This document shows, one piece after another, positions 19,154 through 49,394 of a stretch of 64,000 bases of DNA. Under the pieces are notes generated by a model. It made no database searches and was not told where the DNA came from. It saw only the letters and a list, made by a program, of their open reading frames with translations. A program made the position numbers and the translations under genes. Every line of letters starts with the position of its first letter. Within the stretch, counting starts at the first letter, position 1. Origin of the DNA: Halopiger xanaduensis SH-6 (GTDB taxonomy: Archaea; Halobacteriota; Halobacteria; Halobacteriales; Natrialbaceae); contig NC_015666.1 of NCBI RefSeq assembly GCF_000217715.1, forward strand, positions 2,120,270 to 2,184,269, given 5' to 3'.

Positions 19154-20341
19154 CTACACCTGATCGGGGAGTTTGTCCCGCTCGGCTTCCAGGTCGGACG
19201 TCGGCAGCGTGATGTAGTTCTCGTCCTCGACGAACACCTGCTGGCCGAATTCGGTCAGGAACATGTTGAGGAACGCGGCCTCGCGCATGTCCGTTCCCTC
19301 CGGCGTGTCGTCGGTGATCGTCGTGTACATGTGGAGGTCGCGGTTCAGCGGATACTCGGCGTCGTAAATGGTGTTCTCGGCGTCGGGATCCGGCTCGTAG
19401 ACGGTGCCGTCGAAGTCGATGGCGACCGCCTGAATGCCCGATCCCGCGAACGCCAGCGCCATGTAGCCGATCGCGTTGTCGTTGTCCTGGAGGACCTGCT
19501 GGACCTGCTGGTTCTGGCCGAGGCGGGTGTCGACGTCCATCTCCGCGTCGGCGTCGCCGAGCATGTTCAGTCGGAAGGTGGTGTCGGTTCCCGAACCCTC
19601 GGCGCGGCCGACCACGTAGATTTCCTGGTCGGGACCGCCGACCTCGCTCCAGTTGGCGATGTCCCCCTGGTAGATCCCGCGGATCTCCTCGCCGGTGAGC
19701 TGCTCGACGCCGGCGTCGTAGACCTCCTGGCTGACGAAGACCGGCTGGCCGTCGCGGCCGACGACGTGGTCGACGTAGTTCTCGTCGCGCTCCTCCTCGC
19801 TGATATCGAGCTCCGCCGTGATCGGCCCCGAGGAGTTACCGATGTCGACGAGCCCGTCGCGGACGGCCTCACAACCGGTTCCGGAGTGGCTCAGCGCGAC
19901 CTGCGTGCTGAACGGCGGGTTCGACCGCTCGCCGGTTTCCTCGAAGCCGTACAGGCCCGCGAAGTAGTCGGCGATGTTCTTGTCGGTCTCGATCTGGTCC
20001 CAGCCGGGAACCGACGACTCGTCGTTGGAACCCCAGTATTCGCCGTCGGACGGCGGCGCGTTGGAGTTCCAGTAGGAACTCCCCGTGTTCGAGATGGGGT
20101 ACACCGTCGAGGACCCCTCGGCGCTCAGCGTGCTCGGGTTCGACGATCCCCCGTCGCCGTTGCCATTGCCGTTGCCGTCGCCGTTCCCGTTTCCATTGCC
20201 GTTTCCGTTACCGCTTTCATTTCCGTTCCCGCCGCCGCTACTGCTACACCCAGCGAGTCCAGCCGCCCCCACGGTAGCAGATGCCAGTAGGTATTTTCGA
20301 CGTGATACGCCGCCAGCCTGGCGCTCCGAATCGTTTGACAT
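19154..20341 (-). CDS. pstS: Phosphate-binding lipoprotein PstS
   Basis: 395 residues from ATG at 20341 (a GTG directly before it is not needed). Tat lipoprotein signal SRRKYLLAS with lipobox Cys32. A striking Asn/Gly/Asp repeat linker (about residues 38-67) tethers the binding domain. Phosphate loops match PstS: SAEGSSTVYP (73-82), SHSGTGCEAVRDG (151-163), NSSGPI (169-174), GRAEGSGTDTT (245-255). It captures phosphate outside the cell for PstCAB. The first gene of the operon, with its own TATA box and an upstream inverted repeat. Confidence 0.96.
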   Translation of the reverse strand: MSNDSERQAGGVSRRKYLLASATVGAAGLAGCSSSGGGNGNESGNGNGNGNGNGDGNGNGNGDGGSSNPSTLSAEGSSTVYPISNTGSSYWNSNAPPSDGEYWGSNDESSVPGWDQIETDKNIADYFAGLYGFEETGERSNPPFSTQVALSHSGTGCEAVRDGLVDIGNSSGPITAELDISEEERDENYVDHVVGRDGQPVFVSQEVYDAGVEQLTGEEIRGIYQGDIANWSEVGGPDQEIYVVGRAEGSGTDTTFRLNMLGDADAEMDVDTRLGQNQQVQQVLQDNDNAIGYMALAFAGSGIQAVAIDFDGTVYEPDPDAENTIYDAEYPLNRDLHMYTTITDDTPEGTDMREAAFLNMFLTEFGQQVFVEDENYITLPTSDLEAERDKLPDQV

Positions 20342-20374
20342 CACCTGAGTTGAGACATGACGTCATTAAACGGG

Positions 20375-44376: not shown

Positions 44377-45207
44377 ATGGACGTACTGATCGTCGGCGCG
44401 GGATCGATGGGCACCTGGTTCGGACGCGCGGTCGAGGCCGCCGTCGCGTTCGCCGACGTCGATCCCGACGCCGCAGCGGCGGCCGCCGACGCCGTCGAGG
44501 GGGCCGAGGTCGCCCCGCTCGCGCCCGACGGCTCGGACGCGAGAGACGACTACGATGTCGTCTGTCTCGCCGTGCCGATGGCCCACGTCACCGACGCGAT
44601 CGCGACCCACGCGAGCCGCGCCGAGCGGGCCGTCGTCGACGTCTCGGGCGTGATGGAACCCGCGCTCGAGGTGATGGCCGAGCACGCGCCCGACCTCGAG
44701 CGGGCGAGCCTGCACCCGCTGTTCGCCCCCGAACGCGCGCCGGGTTCGATCGCCGTCGTCCGCGACGCGGGCGGGCCGACGATCGACGCGTTGCTCGCCG
44801 GCCTCGAGGCGCGCGGAAACGAACTCATCGAGACGACGGCGAGCGAGCACGACGAGGCCATGGAGACGGTGCAGGCGGCGACCCACGCCGCGGTGTTGTC
44901 GTTCGCGCTCGCGGCGGAGCCCGTTCCGGAGGGGTTCGAGACGCCGATCTACGAGGGGTTGGCGACGCTGGCCGAACAGATGACCGAGGGGACGCCGCGG
45001 GTCTACGCCGACATTCAGACCGCTTTCGACGGCGCCGATGCAGTTTCGGAGGCCGCCGAATCGATCGCCGCCGCCGATGCCGACGAGTTCGAATCCCTCT
45101 ATCGGGAGGCAGCGGCGACGTGGCAGGCGCGGGATCGAGACCGACGCGACGGCGACGCGGACGCGCAGACGAGAGAGACCAGCGACAACGGCGGTGATTC
45201 CACGTGA
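44377..45207 (+). CDS. tyrA: Prephenate dehydrogenase
   Basis: 276 residues from ATG. Rossmann GAGSMGTWF (7-15) and CLAVPMAHVTDAI, followed by the prephenate-binding ASLHPLFAPERAPGS and a helical dimerisation domain. It converts prephenate to 4-hydroxyphenylpyruvate with NAD(P) in tyrosine synthesis. Stop overlaps the start of the methyltransferase gene by 4 nt. Confidence 0.9.
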   Translation: MDVLIVGAGSMGTWFGRAVEAAVAFADVDPDAAAAAADAVEGAEVAPLAPDGSDARDDYDVVCLAVPMAHVTDAIATHASRAERAVVDVSGVMEPALEVMAEHAPDLERASLHPLFAPERAPGSIAVVRDAGGPTIDALLAGLEARGNELIETTASEHDEAMETVQAATHAAVLSFALAAEPVPEGFETPIYEGLATLAEQMTEGTPRVYADIQTAFDGADAVSEAAESIAAADADEFESLYREAAATWQARDRDRRDGDADAQTRETSDNGGDST

Positions 45208-46787
45208 GCGACCAACGGGAGGCGATCCGATCGAACGCGAAGTACCTGCGCAACGTCCGGCCCATCGATCCCGACGAGATCTGCGAGTACGTCTCGGGGA
45301 ATCCGCATCCGGCGGTCGTCCGCCAGCACCTCCGCGAAGATGCAGTGGCTCTCGGGCTGATCGAGCGCGACGACGGCACCTTCGTTCCCGTCGAGGACGA
45401 GCCCGTTCCCCCCGGCCGCGGACCGGTTCGGGAGTTCCCCGCCGACTACGAGACGGCGCTCGAGGACCTGCTCGTCGAGCGCTACGGCGTCAACTGGCAC
45501 GAGGACGGGGCCGGGGACCTCCTGCGGTCGACGATCCGCCGGTTCAAATCGCGCTACCTCGAGGGGCGCCACGTCGAGTACGACGAGGACGTCGCGGCGG
45601 GATACGCGATCTACCACCTGCCGGCCTACTACGCCGCCGTCCAGTACGCGCTAAACGATCTGGCCGAGCGCGGCCTGCTCGGCCGCGATTTTCGGGTGCT
45701 GGACATCGGCGCCGGCGTCGGCGGCCCCGCGCTGGGCCTGTGCGACTACCTGCCCGACGACGCGCTGCTCGAGTACCACGCGATCGAACCCAGCGCAGCC
45801 GCAGACGTGCTCGAGGACCTGCTCGCGGAGACGGGCCGAAACGTGCACACGACGATCCACCGGACGACGGTCGAGGAATTCGATCCGGAAACGGTGGCCG
45901 GTGACGACGGCTTCGACCCCACCGCTCCCGACGACGGCTTCGACCTCGTGCTCGCCTGCAACGTCCTGAGCGAACTGGGGGACCCCGAAGCGGTGCTTCG
46001 GAACGCCCTCGAGTGGCTCGCCCCCGACGGCGCCGCGCTCGCGATGGCGCCCGCGGACAAGAACACGAGCGTCCAACTGCGCGAGGTGGAACGGGCGCTC
46101 GAGGACGAGCGACTGGTGGATCGAGCGGTCTTCGAGGGGCTCGAGGACGGCGACTCCGGGGACGGGAGCGGCGCGAACGACGCCGCCGACCGCGTCCGCA
46201 ACCGCCGCGGCACCGTCACCGTCTACGGGCCCGCCGTCCGCCTCTGGCCCGACGAGCGTCCCGCCGATCGCGGCTGGTCGTTCGACGTTCGGCCGGACCT
46301 CGAGGTGCCGTCCTTTCAGCGCAAACTCGACGAGGCGGCGCCCGAGCACGACGACGAGCACGCCCCCGGCGAGTTCGTCAACGTCGACGTCCAGTTTTCT
46401 TATTCCCTGCTGCGGCTGGACGGCCGGCGGCGGATCGACGTCGCCCTCGAGACCAGCGACTGGGCGAAGATGGCCGAGATGGAACGCCACGTCACCAACC
46501 GCATCGACCTCGTCGCGGCCAAACTGAGCCGCTCGCTGAGCGACAACGCCGACGGCAACGGGCGCCACAGCGGCCGCTCGAATCCTCTCTTCAAGATCAG
46601 CGACGGCAGCGAACAGATCGACCACTACGCCGTCCTCACGAAGGAAACCGCGCTCAACCGGCCGCTGCTCGAGGCCGACTACGGCGACGTGCTGTCGTTC
46701 GAGTCGATCCTCGCGCTCTGGAACGACGACGAGGAAGCCTACAACTTGGTCGTCGACGAGGAGACCGTCGTCGACCGAATCACCTAG
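45204..46787 (+). CDS. Rsm22-like small-subunit rRNA methyltransferase
   Basis: 527 residues with GTG start overlapping tyrA by GTGA. An N-terminal helical region is followed by a Rossmann methyltransferase domain (LDIGAGVGGPALGL; YHAIEPSAAA; LVLACNVLSEL) and a long C-terminal domain. Rsm22 proteins methylate small-subunit rRNA in organelles; haloarchaeal relatives are annotated likewise. The current stop, TAG at 46785-46787, is completed by the first two bases of the inserted element, while the original TGA remains at 48240-48242. Confidence 0.82.
   Translation: MSDQREAIRSNAKYLRNVRPIDPDEICEYVSGNPHPAVVRQHLREDAVALGLIERDDGTFVPVEDEPVPPGRGPVREFPADYETALEDLLVERYGVNWHEDGAGDLLRSTIRRFKSRYLEGRHVEYDEDVAAGYAIYHLPAYYAAVQYALNDLAERGLLGRDFRVLDIGAGVGGPALGLCDYLPDDALLEYHAIEPSAAADVLEDLLAETGRNVHTTIHRTTVEEFDPETVAGDDGFDPTAPDDGFDLVLACNVLSELGDPEAVLRNALEWLAPDGAALAMAPADKNTSVQLREVERALEDERLVDRAVFEGLEDGDSGDGSGANDAADRVRNRRGTVTVYGPAVRLWPDERPADRGWSFDVRPDLEVPSFQRKLDEAAPEHDDEHAPGEFVNVDVQFSYSLLRLDGRRRIDVALETSDWAKMAEMERHVTNRIDLVAAKLSRSLSDNADGNGRHSGRSNPLFKISDGSEQIDHYAVLTKETALNRPLLEADYGDVLSFESILALWNDDEEAYNLVVDEETVVDRIT
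46778..46785. repeat. Left 8-bp target duplication
   Basis: AATCACCT directly abuts the left inverted repeat and matches the right copy AATTACCT (48233-48240) at seven of eight bases. The difference (C/T) is synonymous in the interrupted gene. Confidence 0.65.
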
Positions 46788-46815
46788 CTCTGTTGAAACC
46801 CTTAGCCGATGACAG
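46786..46815 (+). repeat. Left terminal inverted repeat of cassette
   Basis: Begins AGCTCTGTTGAAACCCTTAG and ends GATGACAG. The inverse of 48203-48232 at 25 of 30 positions. Confidence 0.75.
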
Positions 46816-46965
46816 ATGGTACGTGCTGAATACAGGCGCGTATTTTGTACCGAGTTCACGAATCGGGCGGTAGCAACACCACCGAAGTTATCGATTTTGG
46901 GGCAAAGCGGAAGGATTATAGAATCCGATTTACCACCAACGTCCGACAGCTCACCTACTGAGGTG

Positions 46966-46972
46966 TATATAG
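46966..46972 (+). promoter_or_regulatory. TATA box of the cassette PstS-like gene
   Basis: TATATAG 45 nt ahead of the ATG at 47017, inside the element. This implies the passenger carries its own promoter. Confidence 0.45.
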
Positions 46973-47016
46973 AGTTCTGAGTAACGTTTACACTCACTGC
47001 GTGATAGCGTGACTTG

Positions 47017-48063
47017 ATGGGTCCCTCCTCATTTCCCGTCGCTTCTCGCCGGGAGACACTTGCTGCCAGTACCGTCCTCCTCGGGTCGCTCGCCGGTTGC
47101 ACATCCATTTTCGACGATAGTTCATCGTCAACGCCTGATGCCCCTTCGTCCGAGGGGACGGCGGCGACAGATAGGCGAAACGAAACGACCACCCCGTCGC
47201 TGCATGTCCAGTCGGGGTCGGAACTGCACCGCGTGTTGCACGAAGCGGCTATCGCGTGGAATCTAAATCCGAAACTGTCGGATAGAAGTTGGGTAGCAGA
47301 ACTCGACACCGACTCTGACGGCCGATTGGCTGACTATTTCTGCCGACGGGAAGGACTGAATCCCACCGGGAAGCGGTCGAATCCACCGGTCCAGATCGTC
47401 ATCTCTCATTCTGATCCTCCATCCGTGGTCCAAGACCTCGCCGCCGAACGAGTTGATCTCGGCGATACTCGGTACGAGACGGCCGGGTCCATCAGCGAAT
47501 CGCTCACGATTGGAGACCGGTTCGTCGAGCATCAGGTTGCGACCGCCGGAAGTGCATTTATTGTTAGCCCCTCGATCATTGACGAAGGAGTGACCTCGCT
47601 GCGGGCGGCTGAAGTGCGGGACATCTACGCGGGCGAGATAACGAACTGGCAGGCCGTCGGCGGTCCGGACAGAGAAATCAGGGTCATTGCTGGTCCCGAT
47701 GCCAGTCCGCCGCGTTGGCTCATAGACACGTTTTTCGACGGCGTTCCCGAGACGGGCGTCGACGTACGCTTCGGCAAAGAGGCTACACGGATCAACAAGA
47801 TAGAATCCCGGGACGATGCCCTCGGTGAAATCCCCGTCGGGTTCGCCGTCTCCGATGCTCCCGTCCTGAACCTCAGTGTTGATGGCACACGTTACAGCGT
47901 GAGCGAGACGGGATATCCGTCGACGGTCAACCTCGCGTGTTATACGTGGGGAGAGCCGGACTCGCGAGAGCGTGCATTCATTTCGTACCTCCAGTCACCC
48001 GCCGGTCAGCGGTACGTCGACAGGAACAGGGACTTTCTCCCACTCGATTGGGAAGCCGACTGA
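47017..48063 (+). CDS. PstS-like substrate-binding lipoprotein, cassette passenger
   Basis: 348 residues from ATG at 47017 (a TTG directly upstream is also in frame). Tat lipoprotein signal: ASRRETLAAS, lipobox Cys28. The mature part aligns with PstS of this window: ADYF-x5-G-x3-TG-x-RSNPP, then NWQAVGGPDREI against NWSEVGGPDQEI. The phosphate-contact loops are changed: GSST becomes GSEL, SHSGTGCEAV becomes SHSDPPSVVQ, and EGSGTDTT becomes PDASPPRW. It probably no longer binds phosphate tightly and has no permease or ATPase beside it. Possibly a sensor, decoy or binder of another anion. Confidence 0.78.
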   Translation: MGPSSFPVASRRETLAASTVLLGSLAGCTSIFDDSSSSTPDAPSSEGTAATDRRNETTTPSLHVQSGSELHRVLHEAAIAWNLNPKLSDRSWVAELDTDSDGRLADYFCRREGLNPTGKRSNPPVQIVISHSDPPSVVQDLAAERVDLGDTRYETAGSISESLTIGDRFVEHQVATAGSAFIVSPSIIDEGVTSLRAAEVRDIYAGEITNWQAVGGPDREIRVIAGPDASPPRWLIDTFFDGVPETGVDVRFGKEATRINKIESRDDALGEIPVGFAVSDAPVLNLSVDGTRYSVSETGYPSTVNLACYTWGEPDSRERAFISYLQSPAGQRYVDRNRDFLPLDWEAD

Positions 48064-48202
48064 TTGCATATCGGAATGGAGACGCCATCTCCACTATCGT
48101 AACGTGCGGTATCCCTAGCAGAAAAAACAGCGTCATAAGCGTAGTTTCCCAGATTGCCAACTTACCGAACTTATCCTCTGTATTCGGCACGGCTTCTAGA
48201 AC

Positions 48203-48232
48203 CTGTCACCGACTAAGGGTTTCAACAAGGCC
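48203..48232 (-). repeat. Right terminal inverted repeat of cassette
   Basis: Reads on the minus strand GGCCTTGTTGAAACCCTTAG and ends GGTGACAG. Partner of 46786-46815. Confidence 0.75.
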
Positions 48233-48240
48233 AATTACCT
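48233..48240. repeat. Right 8-bp target duplication
   Basis: AATTACCT followed by GA. Joined to the left flank it regenerates ATY-ACC-TGA, the pre-insertion end of the methyltransferase gene. Confidence 0.65.
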
Positions 48241-48569: not shown

Positions 48570-49394
48570 ATGAGCGACGCCCTCGAGATCCTGCTGACCA
48601 ACGACGACGGGATCCACAGCACCGGGATCCGGGCGCTGTACGACGCCCTCTCGGAACGCGGCAACGTGACCGTCGTCGCTCCCGCGACCGACCAGAGCGC
48701 CTGCGGGCGCTCGATGTCTCACGAGGTCGACGTCGAGACGCACGAGTTGGGTTACGCGCTCCACGGGACCCCCTCGGACTGCGTCGTCGCCGGCCTGGCC
48801 GAACTCGGCCCTGACCCCGACATCGTCGTCGCGGGCTGTAACAAGGGCGCCAACCTCGGCGAGTACGTGCTGGGCCGCTCGGGAACGATCAGCGCCGCCG
48901 TCGAGGCCGCCTTCTTCGACGTGCCCGCGATCGCGACCTCGATGTACGTCCCCGCCCCCGGCGACGGCGCCTCGCTCGAGGCGGTCGACCTCGAGCCGGC
49001 AGACTACGCCGAAGCGACCCGCATCACGTCCTTCCTCGTGGAACACGCCCTCGAGACCGACGTCTTCGAGCACGCGGCGTATCTCAACGTCAACGTTCCG
49101 GTCGCGGACTCTGAAGGCGAGCCCGCGCCGGTCGAGATCACCCGGCCCTCCCAGCGCTACGAGATGGACGCCGAGCGCGACGGCGAGCGCGTCCACCTCC
49201 ACGACCGCGTCTGGGAGTCGATGGATCCCGAGGAAATCCCAGACCCCGAGGGTACCGACCGCCGCGCCGTCGCCGAGGGCCGAATCAGCGTCTCGCCGCT
49301 GACCGCGCCTCACTCGACGAACCACCACGAGACGCTCGAGGACCTCGCGGACCGCTACGCCGAGTCGGTCGGCGTCCCGGAGCACGTCCAGTAA
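48570..49394 (+). CDS. surE: 5'/3'-nucleotidase SurE
   Basis: 274 residues from ATG at 48570. Signature EILLTNDDGIHSTGI (6-20), where the NDD triple supplies metal ligands, then ATDQSACGRSMS, and GCNKGANLGEYVLGRSGTISAA. SurE hydrolyses nucleoside monophosphates. Cytoplasmic. A longer frame upstream runs into noncoding repeats and is not used. Confidence 0.95.
   Translation: MSDALEILLTNDDGIHSTGIRALYDALSERGNVTVVAPATDQSACGRSMSHEVDVETHELGYALHGTPSDCVVAGLAELGPDPDIVVAGCNKGANLGEYVLGRSGTISAAVEAAFFDVPAIATSMYVPAPGDGASLEAVDLEPADYAEATRITSFLVEHALETDVFEHAAYLNVNVPVADSEGEPAPVEITRPSQRYEMDAERDGERVHLHDRVWESMDPEEIPDPEGTDRRAVAEGRISVSPLTAPHSTNHHETLEDLADRYAESVGVPEHVQ

Follow-up and report, generated by a model that had tools for sequence, protein, structure and literature searches.

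How a lone lipoprotein gene, enclosed by inverted repeats and accompanied by no transposase, came to sit on the very stop codon of a chromosomal methyltransferase gene of Halopiger xanaduensis SH-6, and what might have carried it there, are the questions raised by positions 46786-48232 (1447 bp) of the window, as the whole 64-kb stretch of DNA that was analysed is called below.

The element and the site that it occupies

The features of the locus are the following (window coordinates and strand).
45204-46787, plus strand: host methyltransferase gene, product ending in ...VVDRIT, its stop codon being the insertion point
46778-46785: left copy of the target duplication, AATCACCT
46786-46815, plus strand: left terminal inverted repeat, the short-spacing (S) end, AGCTCTGTTGAAACCCTTAGCCGATGACAG
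46823-46850, plus strand: subterminal motif GTGCTGAATACAG (13/13, offset 37, S spacing) with the B-type dyad GTGCTGAATACAGGCGCGTATTTTGTAC (B score 12/16)
46966-46971, plus strand: TATATA, read from the sequence as a candidate TATA box of the passenger
47017-48063, plus strand: passenger of 348 aa (counted from the ATG), a Tat-type lipoprotein (RRETLAASTVLLGSLAGC) that has the PstS/PBP_like_2 fold and degenerate ligand motifs
48162-48190, minus strand: subterminal motif GTGCCGAATACAG (12/13, offset 42, L spacing) with the A-type dyad GTGCCGAATACAGAGGATAAGTTCGGTAA (A score 12/16)
48203-48232, minus strand: right terminal inverted repeat, 30 bp, the long-spacing (L) end, GGCCTTGTTGAAACCCTTAGTCGGTGACAG
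48233-48240: right copy of the target duplication, AATTACCT, the same as the single copy at the empty site within the genus
48570-49394, plus strand: SurE-like gene (LLTNDDG motif, synteny), next downstream whether the site is filled or empty

A sequence-only reading of the window had proposed a cassette with exactly these outer limits, 30-bp imperfect inverted repeats and an 8-bp duplication, and all of this holds: homology to the other ends of the family described below begins precisely at 46786 and 48232, positions 46791-46815 (TGTTGAAACCCTTAGCCGATGACAG) are 92% complementary over 25 bp to the inverted partner at 48203-48227, and the two copies of the 8-bp duplication match at 7/8 positions. 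When the 64-kb window was searched for inverted 25-mers with at least 22 matches lying no more than 3 kb apart, the cassette ends were the sole pair. No transposase is encoded between them, the only open frame being that of the passenger (348/349 aa), and the interior is present in one copy in its own genome. A MITE (under ~600 bp, non-coding, with many near-identical copies) was considered and rejected, as the cassette measures 1447 bp, carries a 348-aa gene and has a single-copy interior.

Before the insertion, the methyltransferase gene ended in TGA; its stop is now a TAG, to which the duplication gives its last base and the cassette its first two, and since the cassette thus supplies part of the stop codon, the methyltransferase protein is unchanged. 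An empty site, which had been suggested as worth seeking, was found in a congeneric genome, where the methyltransferase protein is 91% identical, the gene ends in ...VVDRIT with TGA in CGAATTACCTGAGG, and the site reads ...CGAATTACCTGAGGTC, in which the 8-mer is present only once, with ends absent up to a distance of 1.5 kb. Syntenic conservation elsewhere, named in advance as evidence against a mobile cassette, is not seen, the element being absent from the methyltransferase site in 29/29 other genomes examined; the SurE motif lies within ~530 bp downstream in 28 of these 29 element-free genomes, and was not found in the examined stretch of the remaining one. The 8-bp duplication, together with its single copy at the empty site, is the signature of transposition, and the imperfect match of the duplication (7/8) and of the right subterminal motif (12/13) implies that the insertion is not brand new. 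Inverted repeats, a duplication of constant length with a corresponding empty site, one or few passengers in place of a transposase, and ends in common with transposase-bearing insertion sequences are what characterizes mobile insertion cassettes, all of which is found here; it is near certain that the element is a transposed, transposase-less mobile insertion cassette, as the sequence-only reading had it.

The passenger has a Tat signal with a lipobox and a PBP fold (PF12849, PBP_like_2, 39.4 bits vs. a gathering score of 27), its best structure match being PstS1 (4exl, E 1.4e-10), and it scores 53.9 bits against TIGR02136, below the cut-off of 206.6. The GSSTV motif, the GDAS/GNSS loop and SGT(D/R)T, which 18/19 homologues and the window's other PstS-like gene have kept, are replaced in the passenger by SGSEL, GDTRY and DASPPRW; its closest relative (37%) is likewise degenerate. 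As the ligand motifs are replaced, the passenger is probably not a phosphate-binding protein, and, by its sequence, it is a degenerate PstS-fold Tat lipoprotein; the earlier designation as PstS-like therefore stands for the lipoprotein nature and the fold, but not for phosphate binding. The passenger turned up in no second cassette, and 19 homologous loci have no ends nearby. The second PstS-like lipoprotein of the window (19154-20344, minus strand) has intact ligand motifs and is 30% identical to the passenger. The TATATA situated ~45 bp ahead of the ATG may be the passenger's promoter, which would make the cassette self-contained.

Two kinds of end and a multitude of passengers

The ends are anything but private to this locus. 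Among 125 Natrialbaceae genomes, blastn with the element gave matches in 71, nearly all of them to its ends, and an exact end pattern permitting 10-28 bp between terminus and motif gave 98 matches in 43 genomes, while the reversed pattern gave 0 matches in the Natrialbaceae genomes. The matched length was 45 or 50 for all but one of the 98 ends (the exception being 49), i.e., the spacing is either 20 bp (S) or 25 bp (L). Class-wide, ends were found in 98/391 genomes and 38/86 genera, again with lengths nearly always of 45 or 50 (few of 49 or 51); viral contigs gave no match to the end pattern. The conceivable outcome that no other copies of the ends exist can thus be set aside, and the searched haloarchaeal genomes hold both copies with a transposase and copies with other passengers.

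Pairing of inverted termini and checking of their duplications yielded 41 distinct elements with 7-8/8 duplications, whereas 0/2248 offset-comparison controls reached 7/8 (none above 6); in other same-family end pairs, the duplication is 8/8 in 26 cases. Thirty of the 41 elements are transposase-less, many with perfect duplications, and in these 30 no transposase remnant was detectable by tblastn. Wherever both ends could be read (30/30 elements), one was S and the other L, and all 28 classifiable elements had one A (CAGAGGATGAGTTCAGCACG) and one B (CAGGGCGCGAATGTNGCACG) inner dyad, the counts being 17 for S with A and 12 for S with B, and the main gene pointing in either direction. Such free assortment of S/L and A/B could be explained as the expected outcome of interior inversion via recombination between the ends; inversions by recombination between terminal repeats are documented for ISWpi1 of the IS5 family (PMC3004938), there in an autonomous Wolbachia insertion sequence, whereas for the haloarchaeal cassettes they are read from the end combinations only. 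The elements are poorer in GC than their flanks (51.0% vs. 59.5%; lower in 37/41, p = 1.5e-10).

Interiors range from 0.3 to 2.1 kb and are almost all different: in an all-against-all comparison of the main frames, only the transposases were interrelated, plus one weak pair of lipoproteins (29%). Passengers identified include a TATA-binding protein, a RibD-like reductase, a GNAT, a GYD protein, a PDDEXK_4 nuclease-like protein, a DNA methylase, a CAAX protease, an HNH nuclease, an SRPBCC-like protein, a BAT regulator, a saccharopine-dehydrogenase-like protein, a SnoaL protein with a pyridoxamine-oxidase-like one, a tyrosyl-tRNA synthetase (408 bits) and, by inspection, Tat lipoproteins in the window cassette, L006, L100, L124, L139 and L154; transposase-bearing relatives carry an amine oxidase or an alpha/beta hydrolase with an HTH_10 regulator. 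In H. xanaduensis itself, two further complete cassettes carry a 140-aa lipoprotein and a 579-aa DNA methylase, respectively.

Several individual loci deserve mention in their own right. In L028 (1501-2834), the cassette carries a TATA-binding protein in complete form (PF00352, 191 bits), which makes a general transcription factor mobile; in L111 (940-3040; own genome, C3:3624239-3626339), it carries a 579-aa N6/N4 DNA methylase whose C-terminal part resembles a restriction endonuclease. In L124 (3652-3858), an internal B-type dyad lies between two passengers, as if two cassettes had fused. Three solo ends of the own genome (L007 1639, L008 1719 and G000:C3:3162697) have no partner with a matching duplication and are candidate decayed copies or one-ended remnants.

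One site in Natrialba shows what may happen to a passenger after the insertion. Two species (G044 and G046) share an insertion site and its 8-bp duplication, and the ends and flanks of their elements are 96-98% identical, and yet the interiors (L023 1501-2387 vs. L144 2975-4644) are wholly different, encoding a 170-aa secreted protein in one case and a tyrosyl-tRNA synthetase plus an HTH protein in the other. In a third species (G045), the flanks overlap by exactly 8 bp, which makes it a clean empty site, and a fourth (G043) is likewise without the element there. The simplest reading of these sequences would be one insertion whose interior was then replaced, the alternative being two independent insertions, at one and the same base, of elements with near-identical ends.

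The transposase and the competing explanations

It had been suggested beforehand that an IS6-family helper drives the cassette, and this has its logic: IS6-family elements likewise duplicate 8 bp of their target, and TGTTG occurs in their ends, as in those of IS26. Haloarchaea also carry IS6 elements (PMC7986276). A profile search, however, found no IS6-type (PF13610) transposase in the own genome, while control genomes gave matches, and the transposases found with these ends are all IS5 and none IS6, which makes us regard an IS6-family driver as highly improbable.

What does match are IS5-family elements with the same 16-bp ends and with 8-bp duplications (NF033579, 210-219 bits vs. a cut-off of 140). 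Two IS5 clades, A and B, have the 16-bp termini of the cassettes, the first 16 bp of cassette and IS5 ends being 82-91% identical on average. Clade B comprises insertion sequences of ~1.1-1.7 kb with perfect 8-bp duplications; clade A transposases, 89-93% mutually identical, reside in elements of 1.9-3.9 kb in which one end is of the transposase-side kind and the other of the cassette's right-hand type, with duplications of 7 or 8/8, and clade B is hybrid in the same manner in L108 and L120. Altogether, nine elements have a transposase-side end and an L-type end across a 7-8/8 duplication (the L motif being poorly kept in L096), and such hybrids point to the cassette end being acted on by this group's transposases. 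That clade A/B IS5 transposases would move the cassette is well supported by the ends, the duplications and the hybrids taken together. The own genome encodes one IS5-family transposase of this matching kind, in an intact 273-aa frame (218.7 bits, cut-off 140); the ends of this IS5 copy diverge from those of the cassette past the first 16 bp, and no target duplication was found around it. Nor was any fully autonomous element found in which S and L ends flank a clade A/B transposase, the hybrids having one transposase-side and one L end, and equating the S end with the transposase-side end of clade B proved unsupported past the first 16 bp.

A third IS5 clade, C, lies inside three elements (L092, L174 and L182), its own copies being ~934 or 979 bp long with ends of their own and 8-bp duplications, e.g., CGCGCCCT, CAGAGGGT and CACAGCGC (loci L232, L234, L236, L239, L241, L251, L254 and L258), and often situated within the CTGAATACAGAG dyad motif of cassette ends (8/13 listed contexts, by eye). 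Given its own ends, own duplications and frequent insertion in the cassette dyad, it was rejected as the cognate helper, and, by these contexts, is a putative target-specific insertion sequence inserting into, and riding on, cassettes.

Very probably, the element is a mobile insertion cassette, a non-autonomous transposon that belongs to the IS5-family insertion sequences of haloarchaea and is mobilized in trans. Its single passenger gene lies between two unlike ends, and in each of these the motif GTGCTGAATACAG and a dyad come at a set distance inward of the 16-bp terminus (GGCYYTGTTGAAAYCC). The transposase, of the IS5 family and acting in trans, would recognize an S end with its 20-bp spacing together with an L end with its 25-bp spacing, and would move the whole piece to a new site, making the 8-bp duplication, in this case at the methyltransferase stop codon with the protein left unaltered. 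Different members of the family carry unrelated passengers in either orientation, and an insertion might keep its place while its passenger is exchanged, for which homologous recombination between the common ends would be the simplest route. We infer mobilization in trans, the recombination step and the expression of the passenger.

Two further explanations dispense with present mobility or with transposition altogether. The cassette might be a decayed, once autonomous and now immobile IS5 transporter insertion sequence, whose transposase was lost or overwritten by the passenger, for which the existence of relatives that have passengers beside a transposase would speak, as would the 7/8 duplication and the 12/13 right subterminal motif of an insertion that is not brand new; we nevertheless find it quite improbable in view of the congeneric genome without the insertion and of 30 transposase-less elements with a common two-end anatomy, many perfect duplications and no transposase remnant found by tblastn. 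Least credible of all would be a host-selected gene with merely incidental ends, acquired from another strain by homologous recombination: the 8-bp duplication and the single-copy empty site refute original arrival by recombination, even though the passenger is a full-length Tat lipoprotein and the interior replacement at the Natrialba site suggests that recombination does act on such loci.

Beyond mobilization in trans by IS5-family transposases, a broader proposition can be made, albeit one that we consider possible rather than probable: the IS5 ends might be the basis of a class-wide haloarchaeal system of gene shuttling, the archaeal equivalent of integron cassettes, in which single host genes would be captured between S and L, moved in trans under the two-end spacing rule and swapped in place by recombination, the insertion serving as a reusable socket. 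Haloarchaea are known for heavy horizontal exchange, and if it is true that the ends capture and swap host genes, they would provide a concrete route of single-gene transfer in these organisms; the S/L spacing rule is directly testable.

Relation to known mobile elements

In the literature as far as it was covered (in part, ISfinder lying outside it), no published account was found of haloarchaeal cassettes that form a family with two spacing classes and with passengers unrelated to one another. Mobile insertion cassettes are usually reported singly, in bacteria, and here there are ~30 transposase-less copies with almost entirely unrelated passengers spread over the haloarchaea, with apparent exchange at one site; while the mobile insertion cassette itself is known, diverse, IS5-driven and passenger-exchanging ones in haloarchaea appear to be new.

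The closest precedents are MIC231 of Bacillus cereus and others, in which IS-type repeats and a duplication surround a passenger without a transposase and which depend on a related insertion sequence (PMC3129680, PMC6542083). The likeness extends to the inverted repeats, the target duplication and the transposase-free passenger, but the MIC231 type has IS231/IS4 ends, whereas the window family has IS5-family ends, is haloarchaeal, and differs further in its 30 copies with nearly all different passengers, its two end types at a fixed 20/25-bp spacing and its in-place passenger replacement. Haloarchaeal MITEs (HqIRS32/ISH2 of Haloquadratum and others) are transposase-free and moved in trans as well, with HqIRS32/ISH2 having a non-transposase ORF (PMC3119063), but they are ~520 bp or less, mostly non-coding and copies of one sequence, in contrast to cassette interiors of 0.3-2.1 kb that are almost all different. 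Transporter insertion sequences are resembled by the transposase-bearing relatives (L089-L096, L108 and L120), which carry passengers besides the transposase, yet the window element has no transposase and the bearing relatives have an L end on one side only. The likeness to integron gene cassettes is a functional one, both being mostly one-gene mobile units with very diverse passengers, while the terminal inverted repeats and target duplications of the window family point to a DDE transposase.
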